From the NCBI GenBank assembly GCA_002694035.1, contig NZKY01000045.1, positions 1 to 39,466 on the forward strand: 39,466 bases of DNA. The letters are read 5' to 3'. This stretch comes from Opitutia bacterium (lineage in GTDB: Bacteria > Verrucomicrobiota > Verrucomicrobiia > Opitutales > Seribacteraceae). The notes below the pieces were generated by a model. That model saw only the letters and a program-made list of their open reading frames with translations, did not search any database and was not told where the DNA came from. The position numbers and the translations under genes were made by a program. Below are positions 2,485 to 37,917 of this stretch, piece by piece. The number at the start of each line of letters is the position of its first letter. Positions within the stretch are counted from its first letter, which is position 1.

Positions 2485-2500
2485 ATATCTCATATTAAAA

Positions 2501-3427: not shown

Positions 3428-3450
3428 TCCATATAATAGAACAAATTTCG

Positions 3451-4635: not shown

Positions 4636-4638
4636 CCC

Positions 4639-6187: not shown

Positions 6188-7216
6188 ATGAGCCCTACGA
6201 AAAAAAACCAAAATGAAGATGATGAAAAAATGGCCAAGCAATTGGTTGAAGCCTACGAAAAAATTCGGGAACAGGTTCATCAGGTAATTGTTGGACAGGA
6301 AAAAGTCCTTGAACAACTTCTAATCGCCATGCTTGCTCGCGGCCATTGTCTTTTAGAAGGTGTTCCCGGACTGGCTAAAACTTTGATGATTCGTTCGTTA
6401 TCTCAGGCTATTGATCTAAGTTTTAGAAGAATTCAATTCACACCTGATCTTATGCCCGCCGATATTACGGGATTTGATATTATTCAGGAAGATAGAGAGA
6501 CCGGGCATCGGGAATTTATTTTTGAAAAAGGCCCGATATTTAGCCAAATTATTCTAGCCGATGAGATCAACCGTACACCTCCGAAAACACAGGCTGCACT
6601 TTTGGAGGCAATGCAGGAACATTCAGTAACCATTGGAGGAACAACCTACGACCTGGACGAACCTTTCTTTGTTCTCGCCACCCAGAATCCCATCGAGCAG
6701 GAAGGTACTTACCCTCTGCCCGAGGCTCAACGAGACCGTTTTTTATTCCAGGTCATTGTTGATTATCCAACCAGAGAAGAAGAAAGAAAAATTATTGAGC
6801 AAACCACATCAACTTTTGAATCTGAATTGAAACCTGTTATTGATGGGCCAACCCTCCAAAAGTGTCAGGAAACAGTACGAAAAGTACCGGTACCGGATCA
6901 TGTTTATGATTATGTGCTCGACCTGGTTCGTATGGCCCGCCCAAAAGAAGAGGGTGCTGAAAATTGGGTGAAGGATTTAATTGATTGGGGACCCGGTCCA
7001 CGTGCATGCCAACAGCTAATTTTGGGTTCCAAAGTAAGAGCCCTATTAAATGGAAGGTTTGCAGCCAAGGTTGAGGATGTCAAAGAACTTGCACACCCAG
7101 TCCTTAGACATCGTATTGTCCCAACCTTTAATGCTGAGGCAGAAGGTATTACGGTTGAATCGATTATTGATCGTTGTTTGGAAGCGGTTACTGAAAAAAA
7201 AGAAGCCATTCTTTAA
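6188..7216 (+). CDS. MoxR-family AAA+ ATPase
   Basis: 342 aa; '[17 protein letters not shown]', '[19 protein letters not shown]', '[25 protein letters not shown]', '[28 protein letters not shown]'. Confidence 0.95.
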
Positions 7217-7237
7217 GTAACCCATTCCCTTGCCCGG

Positions 7238-8158
7238 ATGGCCACTGTTACCGATTTTCTTGATCCCAAGGATCTATCAAGGCTTGCCAATCACCAAGTG
7301 TTGGCAAAGCGTGTAGTTGAAGGATTTTGCTCAGGAATGCACCGGTCGCCCCACAAAGGATTTAGTGTCGAATTTAAACAACACAGAGCCTACACACCGG
7401 GAGATGAAATTCGAAGGCTTGACTGGAAAGTATTTGCCAAAACGGATCGTTATTATGTTCGGGAATATGAAGAAGAAACCAACCTCCGTTGCCATCTCCT
7501 TCTTGATGCCAGCGGTTCAATGTCATACGGAAGCGATGAAGAGAACGGAATAAGTAAGATTGCGTACGGATCACGACTTGCCGCCTGCCTTGCATATCTT
7601 TGCTTACGACAAACGGATAGTGTTGGACTAACCACTTTCGACTCCGTTGTCCGTTCTGTGGTTCCTCCCCGCGGAGGTGCCTCGCATACGCGTCAAATAA
7701 TTGATCTGCTTGGAAAAACCACAGCGGGTGAAGAAACTGACCTAGGAAAAGTTTTTCACGAAATTGCACCCCAACTTAAAAAGCGTGGCATGGTGGTAAT
7801 TATATCCGATTGTTTCGGAGATATTCCCTCCATCCTCAAAGGATTGGCCCATTTTAATCATGCGAAACACGATGTGGCAATTTTTCAAATCTGGCATCGT
7901 GATGAACTGGAGTTTCCTTTTCGGAACTGGACCCGTTTTGATTGCCTGGAAAGTGCAGGGCTTAACCATACTGTTGATCCCGCTCATTTAAAAGAAGCTT
8001 ATTTGGAAAACTTACGAGAGTACCGCGAAGAACTTCTGAAAGGTTGTCATAAACACAGGGTACAATTATTTCCGATGACCACTGATGAACCCTATGCCGA
8101 AGGCTTGGCATCTTTCCTCGCAGCCCGTGGAAAAGCAGGGATGCCCATTCACCTGTGA
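7238..8158 (+). CDS. DUF58 domain-containing protein
   Basis: 306 aa; 'GFSVEFKQHRAYTPGDEIRRLDWKVFAKTDRYYVREYEEETNLRCHLLLDASGSMSYGS'. Confidence 0.95.
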   Translation: MATVTDFLDPKDLSRLANHQVLAKRVVEGFCSGMHRSPHKGFSVEFKQHRAYTPGDEIRRLDWKVFAKTDRYYVREYEEETNLRCHLLLDASGSMSYGSDEENGISKIAYGSRLAACLAYLCLRQTDSVGLTTFDSVVRSVVPPRGGASHTRQIIDLLGKTTAGEETDLGKVFHEIAPQLKKRGMVVIISDCFGDIPSILKGLAHFNHAKHDVAIFQIWHRDELEFPFRNWTRFDCLESAGLNHTVDPAHLKEAYLENLREYREELLKGCHKHRVQLFPMTTDEPYAEGLASFLAARGKAGMPIHL

Positions 8159-10548
8159 GCTTTCTCAACGGAGCATTAGTTCTTGGTGCATTGACCGCGC
8201 TGGTTCCCCTAATCATTCATTTATTCAACCGCAGTCGTTTTAAAATAATAAAATGGGGAGCAACCCATTTACTTGAATCAGTGTTAAGGAAAAATCGTAA
8301 ACAAATTCAGTTAGAACAATGGATTATTCTAATTATCCGGTGCACAATCCCAGTTCTCCTTGCACTGACCTTAGCACGCATGGTTGTGATGAATTGGAAT
8401 TCTTTTCTCTTTTTTTTATTACTCCCACTGGGTGCCCTACTCTTTTTGATTATAATGGCGTTCTCTCAAAAAACTCGGGTTTTTTGGGGACTGCTTTGCT
8501 TTGCATGTTTATTTTTAACAGGACTGGGTGCACTAGGCTTTCTTCCTGATTGGGGACAAGAAAATAAGCTCTCTGCTGCTTCTGGTGATGTACCGGCAAG
8601 CACGGTAATTCTTTTAGATGACAGCCTTTCAATGAATGCCGTTGAAAGTTTTTCAAAAGCACAGAATTTCATATCTGGGTACCTCAAGAATATGCATCAA
8701 CAATCTGAGACCAGCATTCTCCAGCTTGGTGGAATTACCACTCCCGTTTTTGAAAAGCCGACTTCTGATCCCAATGCACTTGCCCTAAGAAACGACTCCC
8801 TGAATGCCCAAGGCGATCGAATATCTTTGCTTTCCGGATTGGACCAGGCACTTAGTATCGTTGCAGATGGAAAAAATTTAAAGAGGGAAATCATTCTACT
8901 TTCGGACTTTAGAAAGCAGGATTGGAAAGACTGGGATGGAACAGCAGTCAATGCATTTAAGGAAAGATTATCTTCCATTCCAAATAGTCCAGATTTAACC
9001 TTTATAGATGTTGGTAAAGAATCCACAAAAAATTTATCGGTTGAAAAACTTGTGCTTTCTTCACAGACGATCGGAATCGGACACCCGGTGAGGATTAGAG
9101 CAACCATTCAAAATTACAGTTTGGAATCTTTTGATGGAAATTTACAAGTCAGCCTTTTTGCTGATCAAAACGAAACAGCTATAGATGAAGCATTTATTTC
9201 CATTGGGCCAAATGCATCGGCCCAAGTTGCATTCACTCATCAATTTAAAACTGCGGGCCCAAAAGTTGTGCATACCGAAATAAAAGTTGTAGATGATTTA
9301 CCCCAAGATAACAGAAGAAGTTCCGCACTTAATGTTATTGAACAAATCAATGTTCTCCTCGTGGATGGAGATCCGTCCGAAGAATGGCTTAGGGGCGAAA
9401 CAGACTTTATAAAATTAGCTCTTACACCTTTTGAGGAAAACAAAGAGAGCGGTTCGAAAAAGTCTTCGATTGTAAAAGGAGAAATGAAAGACCTTATTTT
9501 AGCCACATCACTTCCTTCCGACCGATTAAATACAATCGATTCATTTTCAAACTACAGTTTGATCATACTTGCTAATATCGAAAAGCTTGATCAGGAAGCA
9601 GCTCAAAGAATACAAGTCTTTGTTGAAAACGGCGGGGGATTGCTCATTTGCTCTGGCAACCGGATTAGTAGTGACTGGTATAACGAAAACTGGGGAACAA
9701 ATGGGATTCAATTTATGCCCATGGAAATAACCGGATCAAAAGGAATCCTTGAGAATGAATTATCTTACTCGAGGATTTCCAGTTCTTATTTTGAACATCC
9801 TGCTTTATCTATGTTTAATGATCCGCGTAATGGAAGCCTAGCAGATGCACAAATTAAAAAATGGCTGGTCATGGATGAATCAAAGGTGAGAAATGATCCT
9901 AATGTGACTACCCTTGCTAGACTTGCTAATGGTCAGCCTATTTTGGCTGAGAAAAAATTTGGTAAAGGCGTCGTCATGTTTTGGGGGACATCAATTGATA
10001 CGGATTGGACAAATCTCCCAGCTCGCCCAAGCTATCTCCCCTTTGCTCAACAAATTGCTTCTTATCTCTCTGAAAAAGTCCTACCCCCCAGAACGGTAAA
10101 TGCTGGTCTACCTATTACTCATTATATTGTCGAACAAGATAAAGATGTTGTGTTCAGTCTAAATTTACCAGATGGATCATCGCGATCTTTAATACCCCGC
10201 AAAAGAAAAGACCGGTACATCCTTGAATTCATGAATACACGCCTTCCCGGAACTTACGAATTGAAAAATTCTGAAAATGTGGTGGCTAAATTTGTAGTTT
10301 TACCCTCCTTATCTGAATCAATTTTAGAAAAAATCACAGAGGAACAAATCAAATCAGCCTCCGGTGCAATTCACGACAACATCATCCGAATAGATGGTAA
10401 AGATGGAAAAGGATGGGAATCCTATTCTATAATGGATAGTCGAAGGAAATTCGGACGGGAAACCTGGCAAATTCTTTTGGCTACCCTCTTGTGTCTGGTC
10501 TTTGTGGAAATCATTCTGCTTAGAAAATTTGCTAGGGTCACGACATGA
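8155..10548 (+). CDS. BatA-like N-terminal membrane domain / VWA protein
   Basis: 797 aa; N-term 'FLNGALVLGALTALVPLIIHLFNRSRFKIIKWGATHLLE', several TM segments, VWA MIDAS 'ILLDDSLSM', GATase-like stretch 'VFVENGGGLLICSGN', C-terminal TM. GTG start overlaps the previous stop. Confidence 0.85.
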   Translation: MSFLNGALVLGALTALVPLIIHLFNRSRFKIIKWGATHLLESVLRKNRKQIQLEQWIILIIRCTIPVLLALTLARMVVMNWNSFLFFLLLPLGALLFLIIMAFSQKTRVFWGLLCFACLFLTGLGALGFLPDWGQENKLSAASGDVPASTVILLDDSLSMNAVESFSKAQNFISGYLKNMHQQSETSILQLGGITTPVFEKPTSDPNALALRNDSLNAQGDRISLLSGLDQALSIVADGKNLKREIILLSDFRKQDWKDWDGTAVNAFKERLSSIPNSPDLTFIDVGKESTKNLSVEKLVLSSQTIGIGHPVRIRATIQNYSLESFDGNLQVSLFADQNETAIDEAFISIGPNASAQVAFTHQFKTAGPKVVHTEIKVVDDLPQDNRRSSALNVIEQINVLLVDGDPSEEWLRGETDFIKLALTPFEENKESGSKKSSIVKGEMKDLILATSLPSDRLNTIDSFSNYSLIILANIEKLDQEAAQRIQVFVENGGGLLICSGNRISSDWYNENWGTNGIQFMPMEITGSKGILENELSYSRISSSYFEHPALSMFNDPRNGSLADAQIKKWLVMDESKVRNDPNVTTLARLANGQPILAEKKFGKGVVMFWGTSIDTDWTNLPARPSYLPFAQQIASYLSEKVLPPRTVNAGLPITHYIVEQDKDVVFSLNLPDGSSRSLIPRKRKDRYILEFMNTRLPGTYELKNSENVVAKFVVLPSLSESILEKITEEQIKSASGAIHDNIIRIDGKDGKGWESYSIMDSRRKFGRETWQILLATLLCLVFVEIILLRKFARVTT

Positions 10549-13500
10549 ATTCTGCACCTGAAAATATTCGACTGCTATGGGCTGGTGAATGGCCGTTATG
10601 GCAGACTTTGGTACTGTCTTTGATCCTGGTACTTTTGGCAGTTTGGATTTATCGGTCGGAAGTAAAGCGGGGAACTAGTGGTCGACTTCGCTGGTTACTC
10701 CCCACCCTTCGATGTCTCTCATTAATTACTATTGTTCTAACTCTTGCCGGACCCGTTCTTCAGTTACAAAGAGAAGAAGGTAACCGGGGAAAAATCACAG
10801 TGTTTCTTGATTCATCTGAAAGTATGAGTTTAAAAGATGAAAGTTATAAAGCAGGAAGAAAAATACTTCTCGCAAAAGAACATGGATTTCTTCCAGAAGA
10901 ATCAGACATTGTAGATTACCGATTTGCTCAAGGTAGTCGAAAATTGGAAAAGCTGGCTGAAATACTAAGAAAAACAGATACCGAGAATACCGGGAAAGAT
11001 GAACTCGTTAGGATTCAAAAAGAAATAACATCAATTTTGAAATTACTGGGAGAAGAAAAATCCACCTTTTCCAAGTTAACCAGGGATAATTTCTTACTGG
11101 AAGAAGTTTGGCTGAATTTAGACGGCAGTAATTGGGAAGACTTACTAAACCAAAAAAGATACACGGATGAAAGTCCTGATCAATATGCGTATCTCTCCAA
11201 TTCGGAAACAAAAAGAAATACGGGCGATCAATACGCACGTAGAATTAAAGCATTTCTTAATCCACCAGAGGATGGAGACTATATATTTTGGTTGTATTCA
11301 GATGACTCATCTGTCTTAAAAATCGCACAGCCAAGATCCGAGAATTTCAAAAATATTGTCAAAGTTGACTCGTATACTGGTTCCTCATGGAAAGAAAGTG
11401 TAAGGAGTGAAAAAATCTTTCTTGAAAAACAAAAGATTTATCCGATTGAAATTATTCATAAGGAAGGTTCAGGGGATGATTTTTGTGCCATTGGATGGAC
11501 GCTTCCTTCCGGAAAAGAAGAAAAGCCAATTAATGGTAAATATTTTTCTGCTCCACTTAGTCCAAAAGACACTCCGGAGGAAATGGAAATTCAAAATCAA
11601 ATCAGTAAAAAATTCGAAGCTATTTTTCAATCTGACCCCCAAGATAAGCCTGTAAATTTTGAAAATCTTGCTATCAGTGCAATGGAGTTATCTATCGTTC
11701 TTCAGGAAAAATTTGATGATTATGCGGAATCCTTACTAAAACAAAATATTCTCGCTTTGAATGAGGCGATGAAAAATTTCGAAGCATTTACTAGAATGGA
11801 ACGGGCAACCCAGCTTTTATCTCATCCCAAAAATGGACTTTTGGAAGAATTCCGCGATACGCATTTGCTTGAAATTCGTAATCTGTCAGAAAATGCAACC
11901 GAAGTTCTCTGGGATAATTTTTCTGAATCAGAACAATTTGACACAGAAATAGATCCGGTATCCAAATACACTAATTTATCAGACGGAATCTTAAGCTCCC
12001 TAAGAGTTGAAGATCAAAATAAAGAAGAAAATAATATACGTGGAGCAGCTGTTCTCATTTCTGATGGTGGTCATAATCAGGAAAATTCTCCCCTTCAAAC
12101 CGCAAAGCTTCTAGCCGTTAGAAATCTGCCAATCTACACTGTCGGTCTGGGTAGCGATCAAAAACCATTAGACTTGGCACTTCTTCAGACTGTAGTACCG
12201 GACTCTGTTTACCAAGAAGACCGCATTAAAGGGATTATTTCAATTAAGGATAATCTCACCCCGGGAACTGCGTACTCGATTAGAATTAATGATTCCGAGG
12301 GACTTAATGTCTGGGAAAAATCAATGGTGGGCATGGATGTGGGCATTGGTCAAATTACTTTTGACTTTCCGGCAAAAAAAGTCGTGGAACAAAGATTAGC
12401 TGATTTTCCTGAATCTGAAAAAGAAGCGATTCGAACCATCCCCCTGTCCTTTAAAATTGAAGTCGAGCCCATTGAAAATGAAGCCGAAACAGAAAATAAT
12501 CAATTAACTTTTTCAATCGACGCTAGTCGTAGAAAAAATCAAATGCTCATTGTGGATAATAGACCGCGCTGGGAAACGAGGTATCTTAACAATCTTTTCG
12601 AACGAGATGATCGCTGGGAAGTTGCGTGTGTTTGGGGAAAACCCGATTCGGATGAACAAATATTACCGAGAGGTGAAAAAATTAATGAATTTCCAATTTC
12701 CAAAGAAGAATTACTTAAGTTTGACCAAATTGTATTTGGAGAGATTCCAACTGAAGAATTTAGCAAAGAAGAACAAAATTGGATTGTTGATTTTGTTACC
12801 CAACGAGCTGGAGGAATATTATTTATCGATGGCCCGAGACAAAATTTAAGATCATATGAAAATAAAGAAAAACATCCAATTTCTGCTCTTTTTCCAGTAA
12901 CATGGAAAAAAAATGGTCCACTTCGTATTAGCCCATCTTCTTTTGTGCGACCAGAGGAAGAAAATCGTTTAAATGCACTTACACTTGATCCCATTGAGGA
13001 AAGAGATGAAGAAATTTGGAAACACCTTCCTCTTCCCGCTTGGATATCTCCAGTTGAATCATTACCTGGTTCAGATGTTTATCTTGAGGCTTCAACCGAC
13101 GGGACCGACAAGAATAAATCGGCCAAAAATACAATACCCATACTGACTGGAAGATTAGTTGGGGCTGGTAAAGCATTTTATATGGGATTTGATGAAACTT
13201 GGAGATGGCGCTACGAAGTGGCCGACCTTTACCACCAAAGATTTTGGAATCAATTATTATCCAAAGTTATGGAAAGGCCCTTTGCACTAAACCAAGATCA
13301 ATTATCAATGGATGTTGGAGGCAGTGCACACAATAAAGGAAAAGCAATTCCTATTCGGGTTAGACTTCGTGATAAAAATGGAAAGATTCCGGAGCAGCCT
13401 TACCCAGAGGTGGATGCCCTTATCTGGGATGAAGATGAAGTAATTGCAACAGTTCCATTAAAAGGAGTGGATTCAAGTAATGGGCTTTTTATTGGTGAGG

Positions 13501-13853
13501 TTTTTGGTTTGGATGCAAATTCTTACCAGATGTCAGTCCGAGCACCAGGCATTCTAGATGAAATGGAATTTTCCGAACAAAAACTTCCTTTTGAGATAAA
13601 GCCTGGCTTAAACAAAGAGAAAAACTTCCTTGTTTGTGACGAAAATTTATTATCCGAAATGGCAGAACTGTCAGGGGGTAGTTATTTCCGTGAAGAAAAT
13701 TTCAATGAGTTAAAGGAAGTTCTCAGACCAATCAGTTCGGGGAGAATTATAATCAATGAAATTATTTTATGGCAAAGCTATGGTTGGCTTATTTTTGTAG
13801 TTTTTTTACTTGGCTTGGAGATGTTTCTCCGTAAACGAGCCGGTATGTTATAA
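10545..13853 (+). CDS. Large membrane VWA / glutamine-amidotransferase-like protein with PA14-like insertion
   Basis: 1102 aa; N-terminal TMs, MIDAS-like 'ITVFLDSSESMSL', PA14-like 'FLNPPEDGDYIFWLYSDDSSVLKI...PIEIIHKEGSGDDFCAIGWTLPSGKEEKPI', later 'AAVLISDGGHNQ...LPIYTVGLGS', C-terminal TM. Start overlaps previous stop (ATGA). Confidence 0.8.
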   Translation: MNSAPENIRLLWAGEWPLWQTLVLSLILVLLAVWIYRSEVKRGTSGRLRWLLPTLRCLSLITIVLTLAGPVLQLQREEGNRGKITVFLDSSESMSLKDESYKAGRKILLAKEHGFLPEESDIVDYRFAQGSRKLEKLAEILRKTDTENTGKDELVRIQKEITSILKLLGEEKSTFSKLTRDNFLLEEVWLNLDGSNWEDLLNQKRYTDESPDQYAYLSNSETKRNTGDQYARRIKAFLNPPEDGDYIFWLYSDDSSVLKIAQPRSENFKNIVKVDSYTGSSWKESVRSEKIFLEKQKIYPIEIIHKEGSGDDFCAIGWTLPSGKEEKPINGKYFSAPLSPKDTPEEMEIQNQISKKFEAIFQSDPQDKPVNFENLAISAMELSIVLQEKFDDYAESLLKQNILALNEAMKNFEAFTRMERATQLLSHPKNGLLEEFRDTHLLEIRNLSENATEVLWDNFSESEQFDTEIDPVSKYTNLSDGILSSLRVEDQNKEENNIRGAAVLISDGGHNQENSPLQTAKLLAVRNLPIYTVGLGSDQKPLDLALLQTVVPDSVYQEDRIKGIISIKDNLTPGTAYSIRINDSEGLNVWEKSMVGMDVGIGQITFDFPAKKVVEQRLADFPESEKEAIRTIPLSFKIEVEPIENEAETENNQLTFSIDASRRKNQMLIVDNRPRWETRYLNNLFERDDRWEVACVWGKPDSDEQILPRGEKINEFPISKEELLKFDQIVFGEIPTEEFSKEEQNWIVDFVTQRAGGILFIDGPRQNLRSYENKEKHPISALFPVTWKKNGPLRISPSSFVRPEEENRLNALTLDPIEERDEEIWKHLPLPAWISPVESLPGSDVYLEASTDGTDKNKSAKNTIPILTGRLVGAGKAFYMGFDETWRWRYEVADLYHQRFWNQLLSKVMERPFALNQDQLSMDVGGSAHNKGKAIPIRVRLRDKNGKIPEQPYPEVDALIWDEDEVIATVPLKGVDSSNGLFIGEVFGLDANSYQMSVRAPGILDEMEFSEQKLPFEIKPGLNKEKNFLVCDENLLSEMAELSGGSYFREENFNELKEVLRPISSGRIIINEIILWQSYGWLIFVVFLLGLEMFLRKRAGML

Positions 13854-13873
13854 CCCCTATTGGAGAATAGTAA

Positions 13874-16800
13874 ATGAATCCTGAATTAGATCCAATTATT
13901 AAGAGCAAACTGGAAGATTTTAGAGCCCGCAGAAAAAATCTTATCATACTTCGAGGTTTGTGTTCCGGCATTCTTAGTTTTCTCGGAACTTTTGTACTCA
14001 TTGCTTTGCTTGACTATCTAACTCAGGGGCGAATGTCTGCAGACTTAAGAAGCGGGCTTTCCCTATTCGGCTATTTAATTGTTTTGGGGATGGTATGGAG
14101 GACTTGTATCGGCCCTCTTTTGCAACTTCCAAGTGCAAAAAAACTTGCTCGTTTGCTTGAGCAGAGTTCTCCCGATTTGAAAGAAGATTTACTTTCCGCC
14201 GTAGAGTTGGGGATCACAAATGATAGCTCCGTGGATTCTGATGTTTTCAGAAAACTTGTTCAAAAGCAGGCATCCGTGAAGGCGAGCAAAATTGACATTA
14301 AAAGTATTCTTCCACTTGGAAGACTAAAGTATTGGCTTCGGGGAACTGTAACCCTGATTATTTTGACATTAGGCCTACTTCAAATTCCCGATTTTGGAAG
14401 TGATCTAAAATTGCTTATGCAAAGAGCTATCGTTCCGGGCTCAAATCTTCCACCTTTGACTTTATACGATGTCCGCATTCTTGCACCAGATGAGAATGTT
14501 ACCCGTACTCCGAGCAATGAACCGCTTCGTTTTGTAACCCTTATAAAACCAAAAAAAGAAGGATTAACCTTCAAGGAAATTTCTTTGGAAACAAAATCAC
14601 TCAAGGAAAGTAAGAATGTCCCATTATCAAAGCGGAATGACGAACGATTTTTTGTCGATTACAATGTGGGGAATCAAAAATTCGAATATCGGATTCTTGT
14701 TGATAACGCTCCGCAAACTGAATGGCGAAATATGGATGTTGGTTCCCGTCCTTATGTTAAAAATTTCCAAAAGAATTTTCAATATCCAGAATATTCAGAA
14801 CTGGAACCACTTCAGTTGACTGAAGGGCATGGTGATCTTGAAGCCTGGGAAGGAACAACCGTTGATCTAGCGCTAATTACCAACCAACCTGTTCAATCTG
14901 GAAAACTCGAGTTTCAATGGGTTGAGAAACCCAAGGAAGTTCGGGATTTAAAACCTGAAACAGAAGACAATATTTTACAAACCTCTATCCGGATGACCCA
15001 TCCGGGAACTTATCGGGTAAGAAATCTTATTGATCAGAAACTTGGATGGGAAGGGAGACCTTCCTCTCTTTTTGAGATAACGGTAAAACCGGACTTGGCT
15101 CCCTCAGTTAAATGGGTTAAACCAACGGAAAGAAAATTACTTGTTGCTCCAAATGATCTTCTAAGTTTTTCAGCTCTTGCAGAAGATGATCTCGGGTTGG
15201 CCCGAATCGAATATCTGATTCAAAAAAACAAGGGGAAATGGCAAGCTTTTGCGATACCAGGTTTGATTGATCCTAGAGGGCAAGTAGCATCGGCAATTTC
15301 CTTTGATCTTGATCTACTTCTTCATAACTTAAAACCAGGAACACAGGCTTCCCTTAAACTAAGAACACAAGACTTAAAGGGATTGAGAGCGGAAACTGAA
15401 ATAATTGAGCTTTCGATTGTTTCAAGGGACTTTGATTTAAGTAATCTTCATTTACTGGAGAAGAAAGCAAAGGTTTTGGAAAACCTTGATAGGATAAAAA
15501 CTGAATCTGTACAGATGCAGAAAAATTTTCAAAAATCTCTACGAGAATTTCAGCAAGATAAACAGAATAAAAAATATTTTCTTGAAAAAAGTAATCAGGC
15601 AGAAAATGAATTTCTTGTAACGGCAGAAAACACATACCTAGACAGTCTTAGATATCTGGTTTCAATGCCGAGAGGTGCAGATTCTTTTCAGCTTTCGCAG
15701 ATGGCTCAGATGAATGGACAGATTTTTCATACCATGGGTACGACATGGAAAAAAAATATGAACGATCTGGAAATTTATGATGATAGAAATCAGGCTCGGA
15801 CAAAGAGTAATGAACTCGCAAAGAAAGTCCTTAGTAAGCGAATATCAATGGCAGGGAATTTTCGTAATGTTGCCCAGGATTTACTTAATCAACACTCTGA
15901 AACTATCGGTGTTTCATTTCTCAATTCACTCCATAAAAGACAAAAAGAATTAATTGGGAATCTTGAGGAAAGAAAACCCCTACCCTTTATTTCTAGAAGG
16001 CAAGAGGTTGCCCTTGGTCAATGGGACCCGATTGCCAAAACATTCTCCTACTCCCGCGATTGGGCAAAATCCTCCACCTTAAAAAGAATCAAATCTGAAC
16101 AGTTAAAATTAGTTGAGTCCTTGAAAAATGGAAAGGACGACAGAAAAAGCATACAAAAAAATATATTGGAATGGGAAAAAACAATTCAGAATATTCTTCG
16201 TGAAACCCGGCAAAAACTTGCCTCAAAATCACGCGAATCTTTTCGACAAAAATCGGAAGAGCTTTTTTGGAATCTTAATCGTAATTATCTTCTTTGGGAT
16301 AAACTAGGTAATAAATGGAAAAAACTGATGAATTCAAAAACTGATGAATTCGATAAAATTACCCATGATTTACTTGGCGAATCGGATATCGTTATCTCGG
16401 AAACTATGATGCTTTCGGAAGTTGAGCAGTCCAGAAAAGATCAAAATTCTTTATTTGTTAAAGATGCCGGTCAAACAGGGCGAGCACTCATTAAAATACA
16501 ACAGGAAATACGTGAAATTGATACATATCAGAAAATTAAATTTGATGAGATTTCGAAAAAATCTTCTGAACTTGGTCAAGCATTCAGTCTTGTTCAGTTA
16601 CAACATCACTTAATCGGAACTGCCAATCAGGTGCTCTTTTTCATGAGAAAAGAGAATTCAAAACCTGCTTCATGGAAGGGTGCTGAATGTGCAAGGCAAT
16701 GGGGGCGTGTCGAAGCAATTTGGAAACCTATTTTGGATAGTATGTACCGAATGAGAATCTCAAATGAGATTGTGGACATAATGAAAAAACTTCCAAATCA

Positions 16801-19800
16801 ACCGTATCGAAAAAATGTAATTAGGGAAATGCAAAACCGGTTAAGAAACGATAAAGACATCGTTAAATCTATGATTCAAGACGCTGATCTTGTTTTTAAG
16901 GATCTTCAACAAATAATTTCCTTGCTAAAAGATGATATTCTCGAAGCCAGATCGTTCATAAATCAAATCGCACCTTCCATTCCCGAACTTGCCAGAGAAC
17001 TTGCCAAAGAAACTGCACAACAAAAAGAAAACATTCAAAAAATTCAAAATGATAATAATCAATCTTTTTCAGAAAAAAAAGAAGAGCTGACGGCCCTTAA
17101 GCTAGAACAGGAGGAAATTGGTAATTCGATTGAAAACTTTGCTCAGGCCCTCAGGCAAGAAGCAAATATTCAAAACCTGCTAGATGATGAAGGTCGAGAA
17201 ATAGCTAGAGATTCAGACGATGCTGCCGCACTTGTTGAGGAAACTGAAGTTGAAATTGAAGATAATTTTAAGAAAGTAACAGAGAGTAATGACTCAGAAG
17301 AAATTGAATCTTTGTCTGAGGAGACAATTGCCAGCCAAGAGGAATTAATTGAAGAATTAAATCTCATCGCGAATCATTTTGAAAAGTTAAAGGACCAAGA
17401 ATCAGTAGCGGAAACAAGAGCTGAACTTCGTGAATTGGAAGAAAATCTAGAAATTGCAGAAGAGATCGAAGAACAATATGCACAGGCAGAAAGACTCGCT
17501 GATTTAGCTAAGCTTGCACCCGAAGAACTCCTAAAAGAATTGGAAGAAGAACTAGAGCAAAATCAAGCCATGCAACGGGAATTATCCGACCTTGCACAAG
17601 AAACTGCGGAAGATGCTAAAGAGCAACTTAAAGAGGCTCTAACTGAAGAAGAAGCACTCATAGACAAATTAGAAAAGGAAAACAAAGGAATTCAGGAGGA
17701 AAAACAAAAGCTCGCCAAAGAATTAGAAAAAATAGCTAAAGAAACGCAAAAGCTAGCTGAACAAAAAATTGAGACTTTAAAAAAGGAAGCTGAAAAAGCG
17801 GAGATCGAAAAGGTTGAAGATAAGTCAAATGAGTTGATTGACTCTCTAATAGAGGAAGCACTTAAAGTGGAAGATGTGGCCAAAAAGAAACCGGACACTC
17901 AAAAACTTAAGGACTCAGCCAAGGAACTTGCCGAATCGTTGAACCAAACCAGTGAAGAATTAAATGAGCTTGCCAAAGAACTTGAAAAACAAGCTGAACA
18001 TACACCTGAATCAGCACAAGCAGAAGCTGAGGAGTTAGAGGAAGTTGCTCAAAAAGCGGAAAAGTTTGCGGATTCATTGCAGGAAAATACCGATCAGAAA
18101 AAAGAGGAGGCCCAGCAGGCCCAGCAGGAATCACTAAGGAAAGAAATGGAGGCGGAACAAAAGAAGGATAATCTAAACAAGGCTAGTCAAGAATTGGCAA
18201 AAGCAGAGGAGATAGCTTCTGAATTACCTGACGATCCCAATAATCGACAAAATTTAGAAGACTCAAAAAAAGAATTCGCTGAAGAATTGGAAGCATTTAA
18301 AAATGCTGAAGAAGAAAGAAAAGAAGCTGAGATCAAAGCCGATAATTTAGAGGAATTAGCAAAAAAATCGGAAGCGGCTTCTAATAAAGCTACTCAAGAG
18401 GCTCAAGAAAAAAGGGAGCAAGCTGAACAAGCAAAGAAAATTGCAGACGCTTTTACTAATGAGGAAGATCAAGAACTTATTTCACAAGCAAGCGAAAATG
18501 GCTCCGAGTTGGCTAGTGAGGCTGCCCTTCAGGCACAAGACCTTCAGCAGAGGGCAGAAGAGATTGCTGAGGCATTGGATCAACTCACAGAAAATGCTGA
18601 GGGAAATGAGGAACTTCTATCAGAGGCTTTGCAAAAACAGAATGAATTAGCAGAAGATATATTTGAAACTTCACAAGATCTTGCACGTGCCGCAAGACAC
18701 GAAGAGAGACTTGATAACGAGGAAGTAAGCAATTTGCTAGATGATCTTGCCGAAAATAGCAAAGAAACTGCATTGAATGAAATTCCTGAAACCGGACAGG
18801 CTATTGAAAATCAGGCTCTAGCAAATGAACTTGAAAATCTTGCTGAAGCTGCCAAAGACTTAGCTGGAGAATTAGAAGAAACAAATCCCCAAGGAGATCA
18901 AGGAATTGCTGATCAACTTACTGCGGGTGCAGAACAAGCAGAAAATGCCTTGGAAGATCAGCCCTCCTTTTCTGAATTAAAAAAAGAGGCAGAGACATTT
19001 ACAGAGCAGGCTAATCTTGCCGAAGAACAATTAGAGCAACTTGCCCAATCTCTTGCAGCAGAAGCAAAATCTGCACAGGAAAAAGCTGATGATTCAACAA
19101 GCGATACAAATCAGGCGAAAACAGAAATGGAACAAGCCCTAGAAGATGCAAAGCATGCTGAAGAACTTGCTCAAAAACTTGATGATGCTGCAAACAAAGC
19201 GACTCAAGAAATGGAAACTGGAAATGCTACACAACAAGATGTAAATGACGCTGTCGAAGCTGCTGAAAAGGCTGCCAAAGAGGCTGCACAACTTTCTTCC
19301 CTAGCCGAAAAAGCATCCGAAGATTTTGAAGATATACAGGAGCAAGCAACTTTAGACCAGCAGGCAGCTGAGACTGCAATGCAAGAATCAAAACAGGCTG
19401 CAGAGCAAGCAGAATCTGCTGCTAATCTTGCCAATTCGGCAGAGGAATTATTGGAAGAATTTTCTAATCCGTTTTCTTCTGAGCTTACTGATTCACAACT
19501 GCCAGGTGCAGTCATTTCCCTTAATGAGGTTGGAGACTCATTGGAACAACAGCTCGACGCACTTGAGCAGCTCCAATCGGGAGAGCCACTTAATTCCAAT
19601 AATTTAAACTCTAATCCTAATATCGAAGAGGAATCATCTTTTGATAGCAGTATCAGTGAACCTACTAATCCAACTACTGAACAATCCGGGTATTCAGAAA
19701 ATCCTTTTCAAATAAACACACCTTTTTCAGATCCGGAAGTTAGCGAAGTCTTGGCCCAGACACTGGATTCTCTTGATCAAGCTGTTTTTGAAAATGAAAA

Positions 19801-20347
19801 TCCTTTCTCACAGACTCCTGAACCCGCTTCTGAATTCGAAAACTCGGGACAAGTTCCACAAAGTGAGCAAACACCGAATGAACCATCAGGTGGCGAACAA
19901 ACTGGTGAAGCAAACCTTCCCGGAGACTCAAGTGAAAAACCTGGTGAGCAAATTCCAGGCTCAGGGCCAGGTACTGGTGGACTTACCAGCTTTTCTTCCA
20001 TTGCCAACCCAAGCGATGCCATGGCTATGGCATTACAGTCTTTACAACTGGCAACCGAAGCACATTCACAGGCAATGTCTCAGAAACGAACCAACATCAT
20101 GATGTCAGACGGTAAGGGTAACCAATTAAATTCTACGGATAATCAATATCAGGTAACCCCAGTCGCTGAGGTCGGAGAGTTGCCCGAATACGAAGAGCAA
20201 AATGAGGAAGACTGGGGAAAACTTCCACCAAAACTGGCGAAAGATCTGATGGAAGCAAAAAGAGAGAATGTTTCAGAAAATTATCGAAGTCAGGTGCAGG
20301 CATATTTTCAAGCGATGTCTAAAAAAGCAAGAACCATAAAAAAATGA
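13874..20347 (+). CDS. Giant DUF4175-like membrane protein with very long acidic coiled-coil region
   Basis: 2157 aa; two N-terminal TM segments, 'SAKKLARLLEQSSPDLKEDLLSAVELG', long E/A/K/L/Q-rich coil, C-terminal 'DWGKLPPKLAKDLMEAKRENVSENYRSQVQAYFQAMSKKAR'. Confidence 0.8.
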   Translation: MNPELDPIIKSKLEDFRARRKNLIILRGLCSGILSFLGTFVLIALLDYLTQGRMSADLRSGLSLFGYLIVLGMVWRTCIGPLLQLPSAKKLARLLEQSSPDLKEDLLSAVELGITNDSSVDSDVFRKLVQKQASVKASKIDIKSILPLGRLKYWLRGTVTLIILTLGLLQIPDFGSDLKLLMQRAIVPGSNLPPLTLYDVRILAPDENVTRTPSNEPLRFVTLIKPKKEGLTFKEISLETKSLKESKNVPLSKRNDERFFVDYNVGNQKFEYRILVDNAPQTEWRNMDVGSRPYVKNFQKNFQYPEYSELEPLQLTEGHGDLEAWEGTTVDLALITNQPVQSGKLEFQWVEKPKEVRDLKPETEDNILQTSIRMTHPGTYRVRNLIDQKLGWEGRPSSLFEITVKPDLAPSVKWVKPTERKLLVAPNDLLSFSALAEDDLGLARIEYLIQKNKGKWQAFAIPGLIDPRGQVASAISFDLDLLLHNLKPGTQASLKLRTQDLKGLRAETEIIELSIVSRDFDLSNLHLLEKKAKVLENLDRIKTESVQMQKNFQKSLREFQQDKQNKKYFLEKSNQAENEFLVTAENTYLDSLRYLVSMPRGADSFQLSQMAQMNGQIFHTMGTTWKKNMNDLEIYDDRNQARTKSNELAKKVLSKRISMAGNFRNVAQDLLNQHSETIGVSFLNSLHKRQKELIGNLEERKPLPFISRRQEVALGQWDPIAKTFSYSRDWAKSSTLKRIKSEQLKLVESLKNGKDDRKSIQKNILEWEKTIQNILRETRQKLASKSRESFRQKSEELFWNLNRNYLLWDKLGNKWKKLMNSKTDEFDKITHDLLGESDIVISETMMLSEVEQSRKDQNSLFVKDAGQTGRALIKIQQEIREIDTYQKIKFDEISKKSSELGQAFSLVQLQHHLIGTANQVLFFMRKENSKPASWKGAECARQWGRVEAIWKPILDSMYRMRISNEIVDIMKKLPNQPYRKNVIREMQNRLRNDKDIVKSMIQDADLVFKDLQQIISLLKDDILEARSFINQIAPSIPELARELAKETAQQKENIQKIQNDNNQSFSEKKEELTALKLEQEEIGNSIENFAQALRQEANIQNLLDDEGREIARDSDDAAALVEETEVEIEDNFKKVTESNDSEEIESLSEETIASQEELIEELNLIANHFEKLKDQESVAETRAELRELEENLEIAEEIEEQYAQAERLADLAKLAPEELLKELEEELEQNQAMQRELSDLAQETAEDAKEQLKEALTEEEALIDKLEKENKGIQEEKQKLAKELEKIAKETQKLAEQKIETLKKEAEKAEIEKVEDKSNELIDSLIEEALKVEDVAKKKPDTQKLKDSAKELAESLNQTSEELNELAKELEKQAEHTPESAQAEAEELEEVAQKAEKFADSLQENTDQKKEEAQQAQQESLRKEMEAEQKKDNLNKASQELAKAEEIASELPDDPNNRQNLEDSKKEFAEELEAFKNAEEERKEAEIKADNLEELAKKSEAASNKATQEAQEKREQAEQAKKIADAFTNEEDQELISQASENGSELASEAALQAQDLQQRAEEIAEALDQLTENAEGNEELLSEALQKQNELAEDIFETSQDLARAARHEERLDNEEVSNLLDDLAENSKETALNEIPETGQAIENQALANELENLAEAAKDLAGELEETNPQGDQGIADQLTAGAEQAENALEDQPSFSELKKEAETFTEQANLAEEQLEQLAQSLAAEAKSAQEKADDSTSDTNQAKTEMEQALEDAKHAEELAQKLDDAANKATQEMETGNATQQDVNDAVEAAEKAAKEAAQLSSLAEKASEDFEDIQEQATLDQQAAETAMQESKQAAEQAESAANLANSAEELLEEFSNPFSSELTDSQLPGAVISLNEVGDSLEQQLDALEQLQSGEPLNSNNLNSNPNIEEESSFDSSISEPTNPTTEQSGYSENPFQINTPFSDPEVSEVLAQTLDSLDQAVFENENPFSQTPEPASEFENSGQVPQSEQTPNEPSGGEQTGEANLPGDSSEKPGEQIPGSGPGTGGLTSFSSIANPSDAMAMALQSLQLATEAHSQAMSQKRTNIMMSDGKGNQLNSTDNQYQVTPVAEVGELPEYEEQNEEDWGKLPPKLAKDLMEAKRENVSENYRSQVQAYFQAMSKKARTIKK
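16320..16351. repeat. Exact tandem 16-bp direct repeat (AAAAACTGATGAATTC x2)
   Basis: Two contiguous identical copies read directly in the sequence, inside the giant CDS. Confidence 0.9.
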
Positions 20348-21459
20348 CCAGCACTTTCACATTTCCCAATTTTCTATATAAATTTCTTTATGTAGTATCA
20401 GTATTTATATTCTGTGAGGCTGTTCTGGGACAACCTACTGTAACTAAGGATTCTGTTGAATGGAAAAATCCTTTCAAACCGGATGAAGTCGATAAAGCAA
20501 TCGAGTCCGGTATTGAATTCCTTTTAAGTAATCAAAAAGACAATGGCGCTATCTATGACCGTGGGAACCCCACAGCGATTACTGCACTATCATTAATGTC
20601 ACTTGCAGCCGTTGGACATCTACCTATTCATCCAAATGAAAAAGGGAAAGCAATGGCCAAGGCTCTCGATTATATTTTATTGGATAAAAATCAGAATGAA
20701 ATGGGCTATTTTGGCAAAGATGGTGGTCGCATGTACGGTCATGGCATTGTTACCCTTACTCTGGCAGAAATGTTGGGAATGGGAATGGATGAAGAGTCGG
20801 ACAAAGCAATCAGAGAAAAATGTCAGATGGCAATCGATTTAATACTTAGATCTCAAAAAATTCCAAAAAATCAAGCTCAGCAGGGAGGATGGAGATATAG
20901 TCCGGACTCTAAGGATGCCGATTTATCCGTGACTATTTGGCAACTTATGGCTTTACGATCGGCTAAAAACTCTGGACTCGATGTTCCAGCTTCTTCCATC
21001 ACGGAAGCGATTGAATACTTAAAGCGTTCTTATAAATCAAAAGTGGATGCACAGGGAAGTCCTATCGATAAAAAATCTGGATTTGCCTACCAACCCGGTG
21101 GGCATCCTGAATATACCACTACGGCAGCAGGTTTATTAGCCATGCAGGTCTGCGGACAATATGAATCACCGTTTGTCTTAGGTGCAGCAGACTGGCTTCT
21201 TGATAATGCTCCCAAAACCAATCGAAAGTTTTTCTTCTATGGAACTTACTACTATGCACAAGCAATGTACCAACGCGGCGAGGAACATGCGGACATAGCA
21301 AGAGGTTTAGTCGAAGAAATTCTACTTCCCATGCAAAAAGAAAATGGTGCCTGGCAAGGAGGTGGTTCCGAGTCAGGAGCCGGTGAGGTATATTGTTCTT
21401 CTATGGCCATGCTGGCACTTGCAGTGAAATATCATTACCTGCCGATCTATCAACGTTGA
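20344..21459 (+). CDS. Secreted alpha/alpha-toroid (prenyltransferase / squalene-hopene cyclase-like repeat) protein
   Basis: 371 aa; hydrophobic N-term, repeats 'AIESGIEFLLSNQKDNGAI', 'MYGHGIVTLTLAEMLGM', 'GGWRYSPDSKDADLSVTIWQLMALRSAKN', 'YYYAQAMYQRG', 'NGAWQGGGSESGAGEVYCSSMAMLALAV'. ATGA overlap with upstream gene. Confidence 0.85.
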   Translation: MTSTFTFPNFLYKFLYVVSVFIFCEAVLGQPTVTKDSVEWKNPFKPDEVDKAIESGIEFLLSNQKDNGAIYDRGNPTAITALSLMSLAAVGHLPIHPNEKGKAMAKALDYILLDKNQNEMGYFGKDGGRMYGHGIVTLTLAEMLGMGMDEESDKAIREKCQMAIDLILRSQKIPKNQAQQGGWRYSPDSKDADLSVTIWQLMALRSAKNSGLDVPASSITEAIEYLKRSYKSKVDAQGSPIDKKSGFAYQPGGHPEYTTTAAGLLAMQVCGQYESPFVLGAADWLLDNAPKTNRKFFFYGTYYYAQAMYQRGEEHADIARGLVEEILLPMQKENGAWQGGGSESGAGEVYCSSMAMLALAVKYHYLPIYQR

Positions 21460-21478: not shown

Positions 21479-22312
21479 TTATGTATTAAGTCCGTAAACC
21501 TGAGTAGCAACTTCTCCTTCGATTAATCTCTGCTCATCTTTACTTAGTCGAGAAATAAATTCTCGAAAAACATCAACCCAAGCACAGTATTCGACAGCCA
21601 GTCTTGCAACCGGCCAATCAGAACCAAACATTAATCGGTTAGAGCCAAATGCTTCCAGTGCAATTTCCATATACGGTAAAATATCACTGTCATCCCAATC
21701 CTTCCAACTTGCTTCAGTAACAATACCGGAAATTTTACACCAAACATTTTCACGCTTTGCGATCTCGTAGATTTGGGACTTCCATGGTTCCATCATACCA
21801 TCTTTTATCCTCGGCTTAGCTATATGGTCTAAAACAAAAATTTGATTAGGATGTTGATCAACAAATTCTATGGATGCAGATAATTGTCTTTCGTAAATTA
21901 AAATATCGTAAATTAAATTAAACTCATGGAGTAAAGAAATGCCTTTGTTGAAATTTTCTCCCAAAATGAATCGGTTATCTGGTTCATCCTGTACAACATG
22001 ACGAACTCCTTTAAATAAATTATTCGAAGAATAAAATTCGAGTTGTGATTTTACATCGTGGTTAGAAAGAGGGAGCCATCCGACAACCCCTTTGATAAAA
22101 TCGAACTTTTCTGCGTGACTAAGTAAAATATCTGTCTCCTTTAAAGTTTGTGAAGCCTGTACAGATACCACACCATCAATTCCTGAATGATTAATTTCTT
22201 TTTCCAACTCGTTTGGACCGTAATCTTTTTTTAGAATGTCCATATTTTCATTCATCCATGAATATTCAATGGGGTCGTACTTCCAGAAGTGATGATGGGA
22301 ATCAATTTTCAT
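21479..22312 (-). CDS. Amidohydrolase (amidohydrolase_2, L-fuconolactonase-like)
   Basis: 277 aa; 'MKIDSHHHFWKYDPIEYSWM', 'VLDHIAKPRIKDG', 'CKISGIVTEA', 'NRLMFGSDWPVA'. Confidence 0.85.
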   Translation of the reverse strand: MKIDSHHHFWKYDPIEYSWMNENMDILKKDYGPNELEKEINHSGIDGVVSVQASQTLKETDILLSHAEKFDFIKGVVGWLPLSNHDVKSQLEFYSSNNLFKGVRHVVQDEPDNRFILGENFNKGISLLHEFNLIYDILIYERQLSASIEFVDQHPNQIFVLDHIAKPRIKDGMMEPWKSQIYEIAKRENVWCKISGIVTEASWKDWDDSDILPYMEIALEAFGSNRLMFGSDWPVARLAVEYCAWVDVFREFISRLSKDEQRLIEGEVATQVYGLNT

Positions 22313-23361
22313 TATATTTTTGGAGGTTTAGATCTATTCTTCATTTCATTGAGCAAAATATTCCAGTTTTTTTGGGCAAGGTTGGCTTTCATTTTTCGAT
22401 AACCAACTCCATATGCAAGGCTGGTATTATTTTGTAAATTATCTAGAAGTACGGAAGCAAGCTTGCTCTTTTCTTTTTTCAAAACTTCAGAGGAGACCAA
22501 ATTACAAAAACCTTCAATAACAGGTGGGCTTGATTCTATAAATCGTTCGTTTAACCAGACATGTGCAAATTCATGTGCTAAAACAGACTCGCATTCGATA
22601 TAAGGAAGACCGTAAAGAACATATATTGTATGATCGAAACTCGTACCAGGATTTTTTCCCCCTTTTGTAATTTTATATTTCGTAAGAGTAAGTCCCCTTA
22701 AATTTCCTGTCGCATTAATTTTTAAAGCTTCTTGGTCCAATAGTCTTCGATCAACCAGTCGTATAGTGAGCTTACCAATCGGTTTTTTAAGTCCTATCTG
22801 CAGGAGAGTTTTCCATACTCTACTTTCCACTTCATTCAAGATTGATTTTTCAAATACACCATCATGAAAACAGGATGAACAACTCATCCTGCCATCCGTA
22901 AAAAATTGCTTTGGATTAGCATTTTTTTTGACAAAGATTTTTGAACATGTTCCACAAACTCCAGTTGATTGAAAATGTTTAACATGAACCATTCCATTCC
23001 AGGCATCTCTACGGAATTGATCACCACCCTTAAAGCCCGAATGACAAACCATGCACTTAAAACAGCCAATGTGGTATTTCACACCGCTCGCCTCAATTGT
23101 CCTTGTTCCCAAAGTTTTTTTACAGACAGGACAACGGGGTACTGATCTCCATTTACGCACATATTCCTGATCTGCTGTGACAAAGCGCGACAAAGAAAAA
23201 TGGTATTCTCTACCTTTTATTTTTAAACCAATCCGATCACCCAGCACTTCAAAAAGCTCACCTTCTGATTGTATCCCGTTTTTAGTTGTCCAAACCCGAG
23301 CAATAAGTGCTGTGGCAAAAGCAAGAAAAAGAACAAATATTCGGGTCCAAAAATAGACCAT
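22312..23361 (-). CDS. SHD1 - LIM zinc finger - DA1-like metallopeptidase, predicted exported
   Basis: 349 aa; N-terminal hydrophobic segment; SHD1-like 'ARVWTTKNGIQSEGELFEVLGDRIGLKIKGREYHFSLSRFVTADQEYV'; LIM pattern C-x2-C-x16-H-x2-C-x2-C-x2-C; 'TIYVLYGLPYIECESVLAHEFAHVWLNERF...VIEGFCNLVSSEV' matching the plant DA1 peptidase pattern (HExxH plus downstream E). Confidence 0.85.
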   Translation of the reverse strand: MVYFWTRIFVLFLAFATALIARVWTTKNGIQSEGELFEVLGDRIGLKIKGREYHFSLSRFVTADQEYVRKWRSVPRCPVCKKTLGTRTIEASGVKYHIGCFKCMVCHSGFKGGDQFRRDAWNGMVHVKHFQSTGVCGTCSKIFVKKNANPKQFFTDGRMSCSSCFHDGVFEKSILNEVESRVWKTLLQIGLKKPIGKLTIRLVDRRLLDQEALKINATGNLRGLTLTKYKITKGGKNPGTSFDHTIYVLYGLPYIECESVLAHEFAHVWLNERFIESSPPVIEGFCNLVSSEVLKKEKSKLASVLLDNLQNNTSLAYGVGYRKMKANLAQKNWNILLNEMKNRSKPPKI

Positions 23362-23367
23362 ATTCCA

Positions 23368-24783
23368 TTAAGAAGTTAGAATCGAAGTCCAATGGTTCAA
23401 TCTAGTATTGATCTCATTGGGACCAGGCATACCTGGTTTTTCCCTCTTTTTGAATGCTCTTGATAAATCAAAAACTTCGCGCCAGTCATCTCCCAAATGA
23501 GGGCAAATTTTGAGTGCCTCTTCTTGGTCCAAATTGGGAAGCAGTACTTTTTTCTTTTCAGAAAGTGAAACAAGTTCCCCGATGAAATGATGGGCGGTTC
23601 GAAAAGGAACCCCACGCTCAACCAGATAATCAGCTAAATCAGTTGCCAAAAGAAGGGGATCAGATGCAGCTTTCCTGCAGTTCTTTTCATTAAAGCTTGA
23701 AGCTTTGAGAGATTCAGTAACCACAGCCAAACATATACTTAACTGATCAAGTGAATCGAATACAGGCGGCTTATCCTCCTGCAAATCTCGATTGTAAGTC
23801 AGAGGAAGTCCTTTAATTGCAACACAGAGATTTTGTAAATTACCAATAATTCGGCCCGTTTTTCCTCGAATTAATTCGTATGAATCAGGATTTTTTTTCT
23901 GAGGCATTAATGAAGATCCAGTAGTGAAGGAATCAGGTAAATTAATAAATCCAAACTCTGAGGAATTCCACAATATGATATCCTCGGACATACGAGAAAG
24001 ATGCAAAGATGTGGTAACGCACGCCATTGAGAATTCGAGAAAAAGATCCCTGTCAGCAACTGCATCCATTCCATTCGGAGTAATTAAAGGCTTTCCATCC
24101 TCATTCACGAAACCAAGTTCTTTTGCAACAAATTCACGATCCAATGGTAATGTACTTCCAGCAATTGCCCCCGAACCTAGAGGACAGACATTGGCATGTT
24201 CTATAACTCGGGAAAACCTTTCGTGGTCTCGACCAAGTGCCTCAAGATGAGCAAGTAAATGATGACCTACCGTAACTGGTTGAGCCCTTTGTAAATGGGT
24301 ATAACCGGGAATCGGCAAATCTGAGTATTTTTTAGCTAAGTTAAGAATCGAAGACATAGCACCTTCCAAAGAAATTTTTAATTGAAAGCATGCATCCTTA
24401 AAAAATAGCCGCATATCCGTGGCCACTTGATCATTTCTGCTCCTTCCTGTGTGTAACTTATCAGCTGCTTTGGTTTTTTCCCGCAATGCCTGCTCAAGGT
24501 TCATGTGAACATCTTCAAGTTCAAGCTTCCAGGTGAATTGCGGTGATTTTATTTCCTCAATTAACTCATCAATTCCATTCTTGATTTCAATAAATTCGTC
24601 CTCACTAATAAGTCCAACATGAGCCAACATGGAGGCATGCCCAAGACTACCCTTTAAATCATAAGGTGCTAATCTTTTGTCAAAAGAAACGGACTCACCA
24701 AAAACTTGCATTAATGCATCGGGCTGCATTGAAAACCGACCACCCCAAGTCGCTTGTTTCTCATCTAATGCCATTACAGGCAT
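23368..24783 (-). CDS. argH: Argininosuccinate lyase
   Basis: 471 aa; 'TWGGRF', 'DVHMNLEQAL', 'HTGRSRNDQVATDMRLF', 'GSSLMPQKKNPD'. Start may be the second Met (MALDEKQ). Confidence 0.97.
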   Translation of the reverse strand: MPVMALDEKQATWGGRFSMQPDALMQVFGESVSFDKRLAPYDLKGSLGHASMLAHVGLISEDEFIEIKNGIDELIEEIKSPQFTWKLELEDVHMNLEQALREKTKAADKLHTGRSRNDQVATDMRLFFKDACFQLKISLEGAMSSILNLAKKYSDLPIPGYTHLQRAQPVTVGHHLLAHLEALGRDHERFSRVIEHANVCPLGSGAIAGSTLPLDREFVAKELGFVNEDGKPLITPNGMDAVADRDLFLEFSMACVTTSLHLSRMSEDIILWNSSEFGFINLPDSFTTGSSLMPQKKNPDSYELIRGKTGRIIGNLQNLCVAIKGLPLTYNRDLQEDKPPVFDSLDQLSICLAVVTESLKASSFNEKNCRKAASDPLLLATDLADYLVERGVPFRTAHHFIGELVSLSEKKKVLLPNLDQEEALKICPHLGDDWREVFDLSRAFKKREKPGMPGPNEINTRLNHWTSILTS

Positions 24784-37263: not shown

Positions 37264-37917
37264 ATGAGACTTAAGGAAAGAATCAGATTCATTGACGAAA
37301 AACTGAATGAATTATACCCTAATCCTCCAATTCCCCTCGATCATTCAGACCCTTATACTTTATTGATCGCTGTTCTTCTCTCGGCACAATGCACGGATGC
37401 AAGAGTTAATAAAGTAACTCCTGATCTTTTTCATTTAGCAAACACTCCGAGAAAAATGGTTTCCACAAGTGTTGAAAAAATAAATGAAATCGTTCGTCCA
37501 TGCGGTTTAGCACCAAGAAAATCAAATGCCATCTATCGACTTTCGAAGATCTTAATTGAGAAATATGACGGTTCAGTACCCGATAGTTTTGAAGAATTAG
37601 AAGAACTTCCTGGAGTAGGCCACAAAACTGCATCCGTTGTCATGTCTCAGGCATTTGGGCACCCTTCCTTTCCCGTCGATACCCATATTCATCGACTCGC
37701 TCAAAGATGGAAATTAACTAACGGTAAAAATGTTGTTCAAACTGAGAAAGACCTAAAAAGACATTTTCGAAAAGAAAGATGGAATGACATTCACCTACAA
37801 ATTATTTTTTATGGTAGAGAATACTGCAAAGCCCATAATTGCTTTGGTTTAGATTGTTTAATATGTAAAACTATCTTTCCCAATCGGAAAAAAAAGATAA
37901 TTACAAAAAAGCCTTAG
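37264..37917 (+). CDS. nth: Endonuclease III (HhH-GPD base-excision glycosylase)
   Basis: 217 aa; 'LLIAVLLSAQCTDARVNKVTPDLF', HhH 'LEELPGVGHKTASVVMSQAFGHPSFPVDTHIHRLAQRW', C-terminal Cys-rich 'GREYCKAHNCFGLDCLIC'. Confidence 0.93.
   Translation: MRLKERIRFIDEKLNELYPNPPIPLDHSDPYTLLIAVLLSAQCTDARVNKVTPDLFHLANTPRKMVSTSVEKINEIVRPCGLAPRKSNAIYRLSKILIEKYDGSVPDSFEELEELPGVGHKTASVVMSQAFGHPSFPVDTHIHRLAQRWKLTNGKNVVQTEKDLKRHFRKERWNDIHLQIIFYGREYCKAHNCFGLDCLICKTIFPNRKKKIITKKP

Follow-up and report, generated by a model that had tools for sequence, protein, structure and literature searches.

A probably exported SHD1-LIM-DA1 protein from an Opitutia bacterium and its relation to the plant DA1 peptidases

DA1 is an agronomically important growth regulator of plants. 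Plant DA1 proteins are intracellular, latent peptidases that carry N-terminal ubiquitin-interaction motifs (UIMs) and are activated by ubiquitylation through them, and the C274Y substitution abolishes both ubiquitylation and peptidase activity (PMC5322733). High similarity of DA1 to Roseiflexus proteins has been noted in the same work, citing Burroughs et al. 2011 (PMC5322733), and bacterial LIM-DA1 proteins are hence already known. No description of SHD1-LIM-DA1 proteins or of exported DA1s was found in the literature searched, with most subscription journals lying outside it, and the exported SHD1-LIM-DA1 architecture presented here appears to be new.

The window analysed, a stretch of 39,466 nucleotides from an Opitutia bacterium (contig NZKY01000045.1), encodes a 349-residue SHD1-LIM-DA1 protein, labelled P0001, at 22312..23361 (-), with an ATG start and exact ORF bounds. 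The gene is preceded by argH, encoding argininosuccinate lyase (23368..24783 (-); Pfam Lyase_1 and ASL_C2), and followed by a gene for an L-fuconolactonase-like amidohydrolase (21479..22312 (-); Pfam Amidohydro_2), the latter scoring 263.7 bits in NCBIfam, under the cut-off of 400. As only 6 nt separate the argH stop from the SHD1-LIM-DA1 start, and the stop codon of the latter overlaps the amidohydrolase start, the three genes probably form a single transcript. Across the bacterial family of P0001 (f1), argH adjoins the gene in 12/12 distinct loci examined, and the succinate dehydrogenase genes (sdhCAB) also precede it in these loci wherever the contig extends far enough. The presence of the amidohydrolase gene on the other side varies, and it does not adjoin the DA1 gene in loci L101-L104. 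All with housekeeping functions, the neighbouring argH, sdhCAB and pyrG offer no pointer to a substrate. The SHD1-LIM-DA1 gene is under strong purifying selection, with dN/dS of 0.04-0.08 among close relatives where measurable.

The C-terminal half of P0001 is a DA1-like peptidase domain (residues 168-349; 22315..22860 (-)), which matches Pfam DA1-like (PF12315) with 43.6 bits and 2.9e-11 against a curated cut-off of 25. It includes the zinc-binding HEFAH sequence (residues 263-267; 22561..22575 (-)) and E283-G284 (22510..22515 (-)), the former being the presumed third zinc ligand, as well as a C-terminal Y317-GVGYR322 motif (22396..22413 (-)) that is kept in the family. In an alignment of 47 proteins from two phyla, Verrucomicrobiota and Chloroflexota, H263, E264, H267, E283, G284 and Y317 are invariant, and G320 and R322 are at least 90% kept. 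The AlphaFold2 model of the full protein, computed with 47 relatives, reached a mean pLDDT of 93.2 and a pTM of 0.86 (pLDDT 95.1 for the peptidase domain modelled alone), and places HEFAH within helix 254-272 and E283-G284 within helix 279-295, i.e. on successive helices. H263, H267 and E283 are presumed to be the zinc ligands of a small zincin. Comparison of the DA1 domain model with PDB structures returned nothing significant and, with no close solved relative, it is motif and topology that define the putative zinc site. Three matches of the full model to viral models at E ≤ 0.001 were rejected as poor overlays (TM ~0.25 or less), with a weak SprT/IrrE-like zincin resemblance. We note that C286 (window 22504-22506), located right after the zinc-ligand E-G in the sequence EGFC, is kept in the bacterial family and also in plant DA1, where the sequence reads EGIC.

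The peptidase is preceded by Cys- and His-rich fingers. A LIM finger pair, C77 C80 H97 C100 / C103 C106 H126 H129 (22975..23133 (-)), matches Pfam LIM (PF00412) with 35 bits and 1.7e-8 (curated cut-off 22.9), the best PDB sequence match of P0001 is a human TRIP6 LIM domain (5.5e-7), and Foldseek recovers LIM structures with the P0001 model. The ligand pattern is CxxC, HxxC, CxxC, HxxH, the seventh ligand being His and not Cys. A third, LIM-like finger follows (C136xxC139...C161xxC164; 22870..22956 (-)). In the alignment of 47 DA1-like proteins, C103, C136, C139, C161 and C164 are invariant in Verrucomicrobiota and Chloroflexota alike. The LIM ligands are kept among relatives save C106, which is Thr or Ser in L054 and L055; these two proteins keep the peptidase and may have lost one zinc site of the LIM pair, and the second site is thus no absolute requirement.

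For comparison with plants, an Arabidopsis DA1 sequence was used that may hold small errors; its match to PF12315 spans the whole profile with 322 bits, and residue 274 is Cys, in agreement with the published protein. Plant DA1/DAR proteins and P0001 agree in domain order, the LIM finger coming first, then LIM-like fingers and finally the HExxH...EG peptidase, and 13 Cys/His zinc or catalytic positions of P0001 match the Arabidopsis sequence in kind, with H126 facing a Cys. C136, C139, C161 and C164 align with C271, C274, C294 and C297, so that C139 is the equivalent of C274 and the third finger is the counterpart of the final pair in the plant LIM-like region. The C-terminal YGxGxR motif is likewise common to both, reading YGDGFR in the plant sequence. 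However, P0001 has one CxxC/HxxC pair fewer, and its LIM thereby joins the first half of the plant LIM to the plant LIM-like half. The N-termini differ as well, since P0001 has a predicted signal peptide and an SHD1 domain in place of the ubiquitin-interaction motifs of the intracellular plant protein; a Pfam search at E ≤ 1 detected no UIM in P0001, whereas the Arabidopsis DA1 sequence gives UIM_2.

The SHD1 domain (residues 22-71; 23149..23298 (-)) falls under the Pfam threshold. P0001 has no match to Pfam SHD1 (PF03983) at E ≤ 1, nor is it among the SHD1 matches of its genome at E ≤ 10. As the Pfam model alone would dismiss a true domain, an order-specific profile was used instead, built from 11 SHD1 segments of the same order that had been collected with the Pfam model. 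Residues 21-70 match this profile with 28.6 bits (E=1.6e-7), and in Foldseek the model superposes on Sla1 SHD1 as solved by NMR (2hbp), with TMt 0.67 and rmsd 1.5 A over 52 columns. The N-terminal module is therefore SHD1-like by order-specific homology and fold, not by Pfam threshold. It shares the SH3-like fold of 2hbp at 21% identity, but Sla1 is a eukaryotic endocytic adaptor, whereas here SHD1 is a module of a predicted exported enzyme. The profile matches all family-f1 DA1s, one with a trimmed start scoring once complete, and none of the DA1 proteins outside f1. In other proteins of the order, SHD1 follows a hydrophobic start and precedes unrelated domains, e.g. thioredoxin-like or peptidase-like ones as judged by eye; for such a recurrent module before varied domains, a role in binding or localisation is more likely than one in the catalytic machine.

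These data bear on an initial annotation made from the DNA sequence alone. Its placement of the LIM fingers holds, C77 beginning at 23133 and C164 ending at 22870, as does that of HEFAH at 22561-22575 followed by VIEGFCNL. The SHD1-like stretch that it described is recovered by the order-specific profile and the Sla1 overlay, although in the profile search that it had proposed only DA1-like and LIM are found, Pfam SHD1 not being reported. The AlphaFold model, likewise proposed as a check, agrees with the expected metal site in its prediction of HExxH and EG on two successive helices.

The N-terminus resembles a signal peptide (residues 1-21; 23299..23361 (-)), with a hydrophobic core and a small residue before R-x-W-T/S, i.e. 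the two features expected of a Sec/SPI signal and its predicted cleavage site, and the model shows a helix at residues 2-18. In nearly all relatives, R-x-W-T/S directly follows A, G or S while the hydrophobic segment itself diverges, and such a kept small residue next to a freely diverging segment is the pattern of a cleaved signal peptide. The hydrophobic, signal-like segment of the initial annotation is hence supported by the comparison of relatives. A signal-like N-terminus is apparently kept throughout the family, as opposed to the intracellular plant-type DA1 without export signal. The start is strongly hydrophobic in most DA1s of Verrucomicrobiota, and several exceptions trace to start-codon choice when the frames are read; 16/16 Chloroflexota DA1s lack a hydrophobic start, all being below 1.5 on the same scale. 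Judged from sequence, the SHD1-LIM-DA1 protein is thus probably exported. Cys-ligated zinc fingers are unusual in the oxidising periplasm, and their presence in a periplasmic protein is a point against the predicted export model.

A survey of Verrucomicrobiota, Chloroflexota and Actinomycetota genomes detected DA1-like domains in 37/388, 16/151 and 0/297 genomes, respectively, and tblastn against a plasmid collection gave no match. Actinomycetota candidates from a first scan (L012-L017) were discarded, as by sequence they look like IrrE/ImmA-type HEFAHVW proteins. Within the family of P0001, which consists of marine Opitutales bacteria, the SHD1-LIM-DA1 gene is present in 34/42 genomes, counted from the match table; three more of the 42 match only via other SHD1 proteins, and most of the remaining ones are incomplete. 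Orthologues in 7 records are 76-80% identical. LIM-DA1 proteins are encoded by Chloroflexota and, within P0001's order, by two families. In one Verrucomicrobiota genome, two DA1-like genes adjoin each other (L043 196-1206 and 1333-2142), likely through tandem duplication.

The relatives differ in their N-terminal parts. Chloroflexota LIM-DA1 proteins (L087-L089) match LIM and DA1-like above both Pfam cut-offs, but lack the hydrophobic N-terminus and SHD1 of P0001. The multi-LIM DA1s of a second Opitutales family (f93; L059, L060) share the hydrophobic start, LIM and DA1, yet have more tandem CxxC/HxxC fingers and no SHD1. Other Verrucomicrobiota DA1s (f23, f28, f48) have a hydrophobic start, CxxC fingers, the same LxDGRxxCxxC finger and the DA1 core, whereas their N-terminal fingers are FCS/treble-clef-like and not canonical LIM, again without SHD1. 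A maximum-likelihood tree was built from the last finger and the peptidase; it is unrooted, and Arabidopsis DA1 is its one plant sequence. In it, a 97/95 branch separates the Opitutales LIM-DA1s, with f93 as sister group to P0001's own, the Chloroflexota LIM-DA1s and Arabidopsis DA1 from the FCS-finger Verrucomicrobiota (f23, f28 and f48 among them) and Herpetosiphon types. Arabidopsis DA1 forms a long separate branch beside broad bacterial diversity. A single clade of all Verrucomicrobiota DA1s is not rejected by a tree test (p=0.127), and separate origins of export are accordingly not claimed. With one plant sequence in an unrooted tree, the favoured view is that the DA1 family is bacterial and that plants form one branch of it; on the alternative of ancestry or transfer that the initial annotation had raised, the phylogeny leans to the former within these bounds. 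Its reading is supported in that SHD1, LIM, DA1 and a predicted export signal are all in place; the architecture is, however, not a plant property, considering the LIM-DA1s of Chloroflexota and Opitutales and the exported-looking Verrucomicrobiota DA1s.

Starting from the observed domains, conserved ligands, purifying selection and conserved genomic site, we consider it likely, with reasonable confidence, that P0001 is a Sec-exported zinc peptidase of the DA1 family that operates independently of ubiquitin and uses SHD1 and LIM for recognition. The signal peptide would direct the protein to the Sec route and be cut just before R22-V-W-T. The mature protein would then reside in the periplasm or be released, consisting of an SH3-like SHD1, the LIM pair, the LIM-like finger and a small zincin, in which H263, H267 and E283 would hold the catalytic zinc. 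Proteolysis is suggested by the DA1 family, and the fingers probably serve to bind the substrate, or else a peptide of a partner, and to keep the peptidase in its working or latent state, in analogy to plant DA1. SHD1 and LIM would take over recognition from the ubiquitin-binding motifs of the plant protein, the recognition role being conjecture. As these motifs are absent from P0001, control by ubiquitin is unlikely.

Alternatively, the hydrophobic N-terminus may be an uncleaved anchor that tethers the peptidase to the inner membrane, facing the periplasm, where it would process membrane or envelope proteins. The hydrophobic run of P0001 is long with Leu at -3, and Burroughs et al. in 2011 reportedly proposed that LIM domains of prokaryotes partner peptidases associated with the membrane, both compatible with an anchor, but the small residue kept before R-x-W-T next to a diverging segment rather speaks for cleavage, and we regard tethering as unlikely, albeit the strongest of the competing explanations. 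That P0001 is a non-proteolytic zinc protein, such as a peptide-binding scaffold or a zinc store with a dead zincin fold, would agree with its many zinc ligands, and the literature searched yielded no protease assay of a bacterial DA1; a dead enzyme is nevertheless improbable considering that HExxH and E283 are invariant in 47/47 relatives of two phyla and kept in 25/25 aligned rows of the bacterial family.

Acquisition of the gene by Opitutales from a plant or alga is harder still to reconcile with the data. Canonical LIM is rare in Verrucomicrobiota (4/289 genomes) and eukaryotic LIM proteins rank first among PDB sequence matches, both in favour of such a transfer, but close relatives are found in each of the family's 4 genera and at one conserved genomic site, a second LIM-DA1 family exists in the order, LIM-DA1s are present in Chloroflexota, and the Opitutales sequences are not nested within the long Arabidopsis branch. 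As far as sequences can tell, this argues against a eukaryote-to-Opitutales transfer, which we hold to be very improbable. Least credible is a chance resemblance of Cys-rich and beta-rich stretches to LIM and SHD1, for which the silence of the Pfam SHD1 model could be invoked; the LIM match exceeds its cut-off, the best of 2000 shuffles reaches only 7.4 bits against the order-specific SHD1 profile compared to the 28.6 bits of P0001, and both folds are recovered structurally.

If the exported zinc peptidase reading is right, the small bacterial relative, which lacks ubiquitin motifs and retains the same zinc ligands including the C274 equivalent, represents a practical model for the DA1 switch. 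No close match to the plant DA1 peptidase domain was found among solved structures. The bacterial protein also suggests that canonical LIM fingers can be active outside the cytoplasm, where Cys-zinc sites are not expected, and offers a bacterial background against which to view the origin of the plant DA1 family. More speculatively, and with considerable doubt, plant DA1 may have arisen from a bacterial finger-peptidase family, of which the Verrucomicrobiota form would be exported, ubiquitin-free and gated by peptide binding to SHD1 and LIM, in which case the latent switch would be older than its control by ubiquitin.

The window holds further features of note. At 1312-6051 (+) lies an Ebo-like metabolite cluster, in which EboE (NF035939) exceeds its cut-off with 433 bits; an EboC/UbiA-like prenyltransferase, a type I phosphodiesterase and a 3-dehydroquinate synthase-like enzyme are encoded there as well. 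An ECF sigma factor gene is divergently oriented to it at 474-989 (-). The Ebo-like block directly adjoins the DA1 gene in L101, L103 and L104; in the window the two are separated by one run of genes (6188-21459 (+)) for a MoxR AAA protein, DUF58, BatA-VWA and PA14-VWA proteins, a 2157-aa DUF4175-like protein and a prenyltransferase-toroid protein, a run not interposed in those three loci. Finally, the product of a gene at 37917-38900 (-) shows an unusual combination, in which weak leucine-rich-repeat matches come after a GYF_2 domain.
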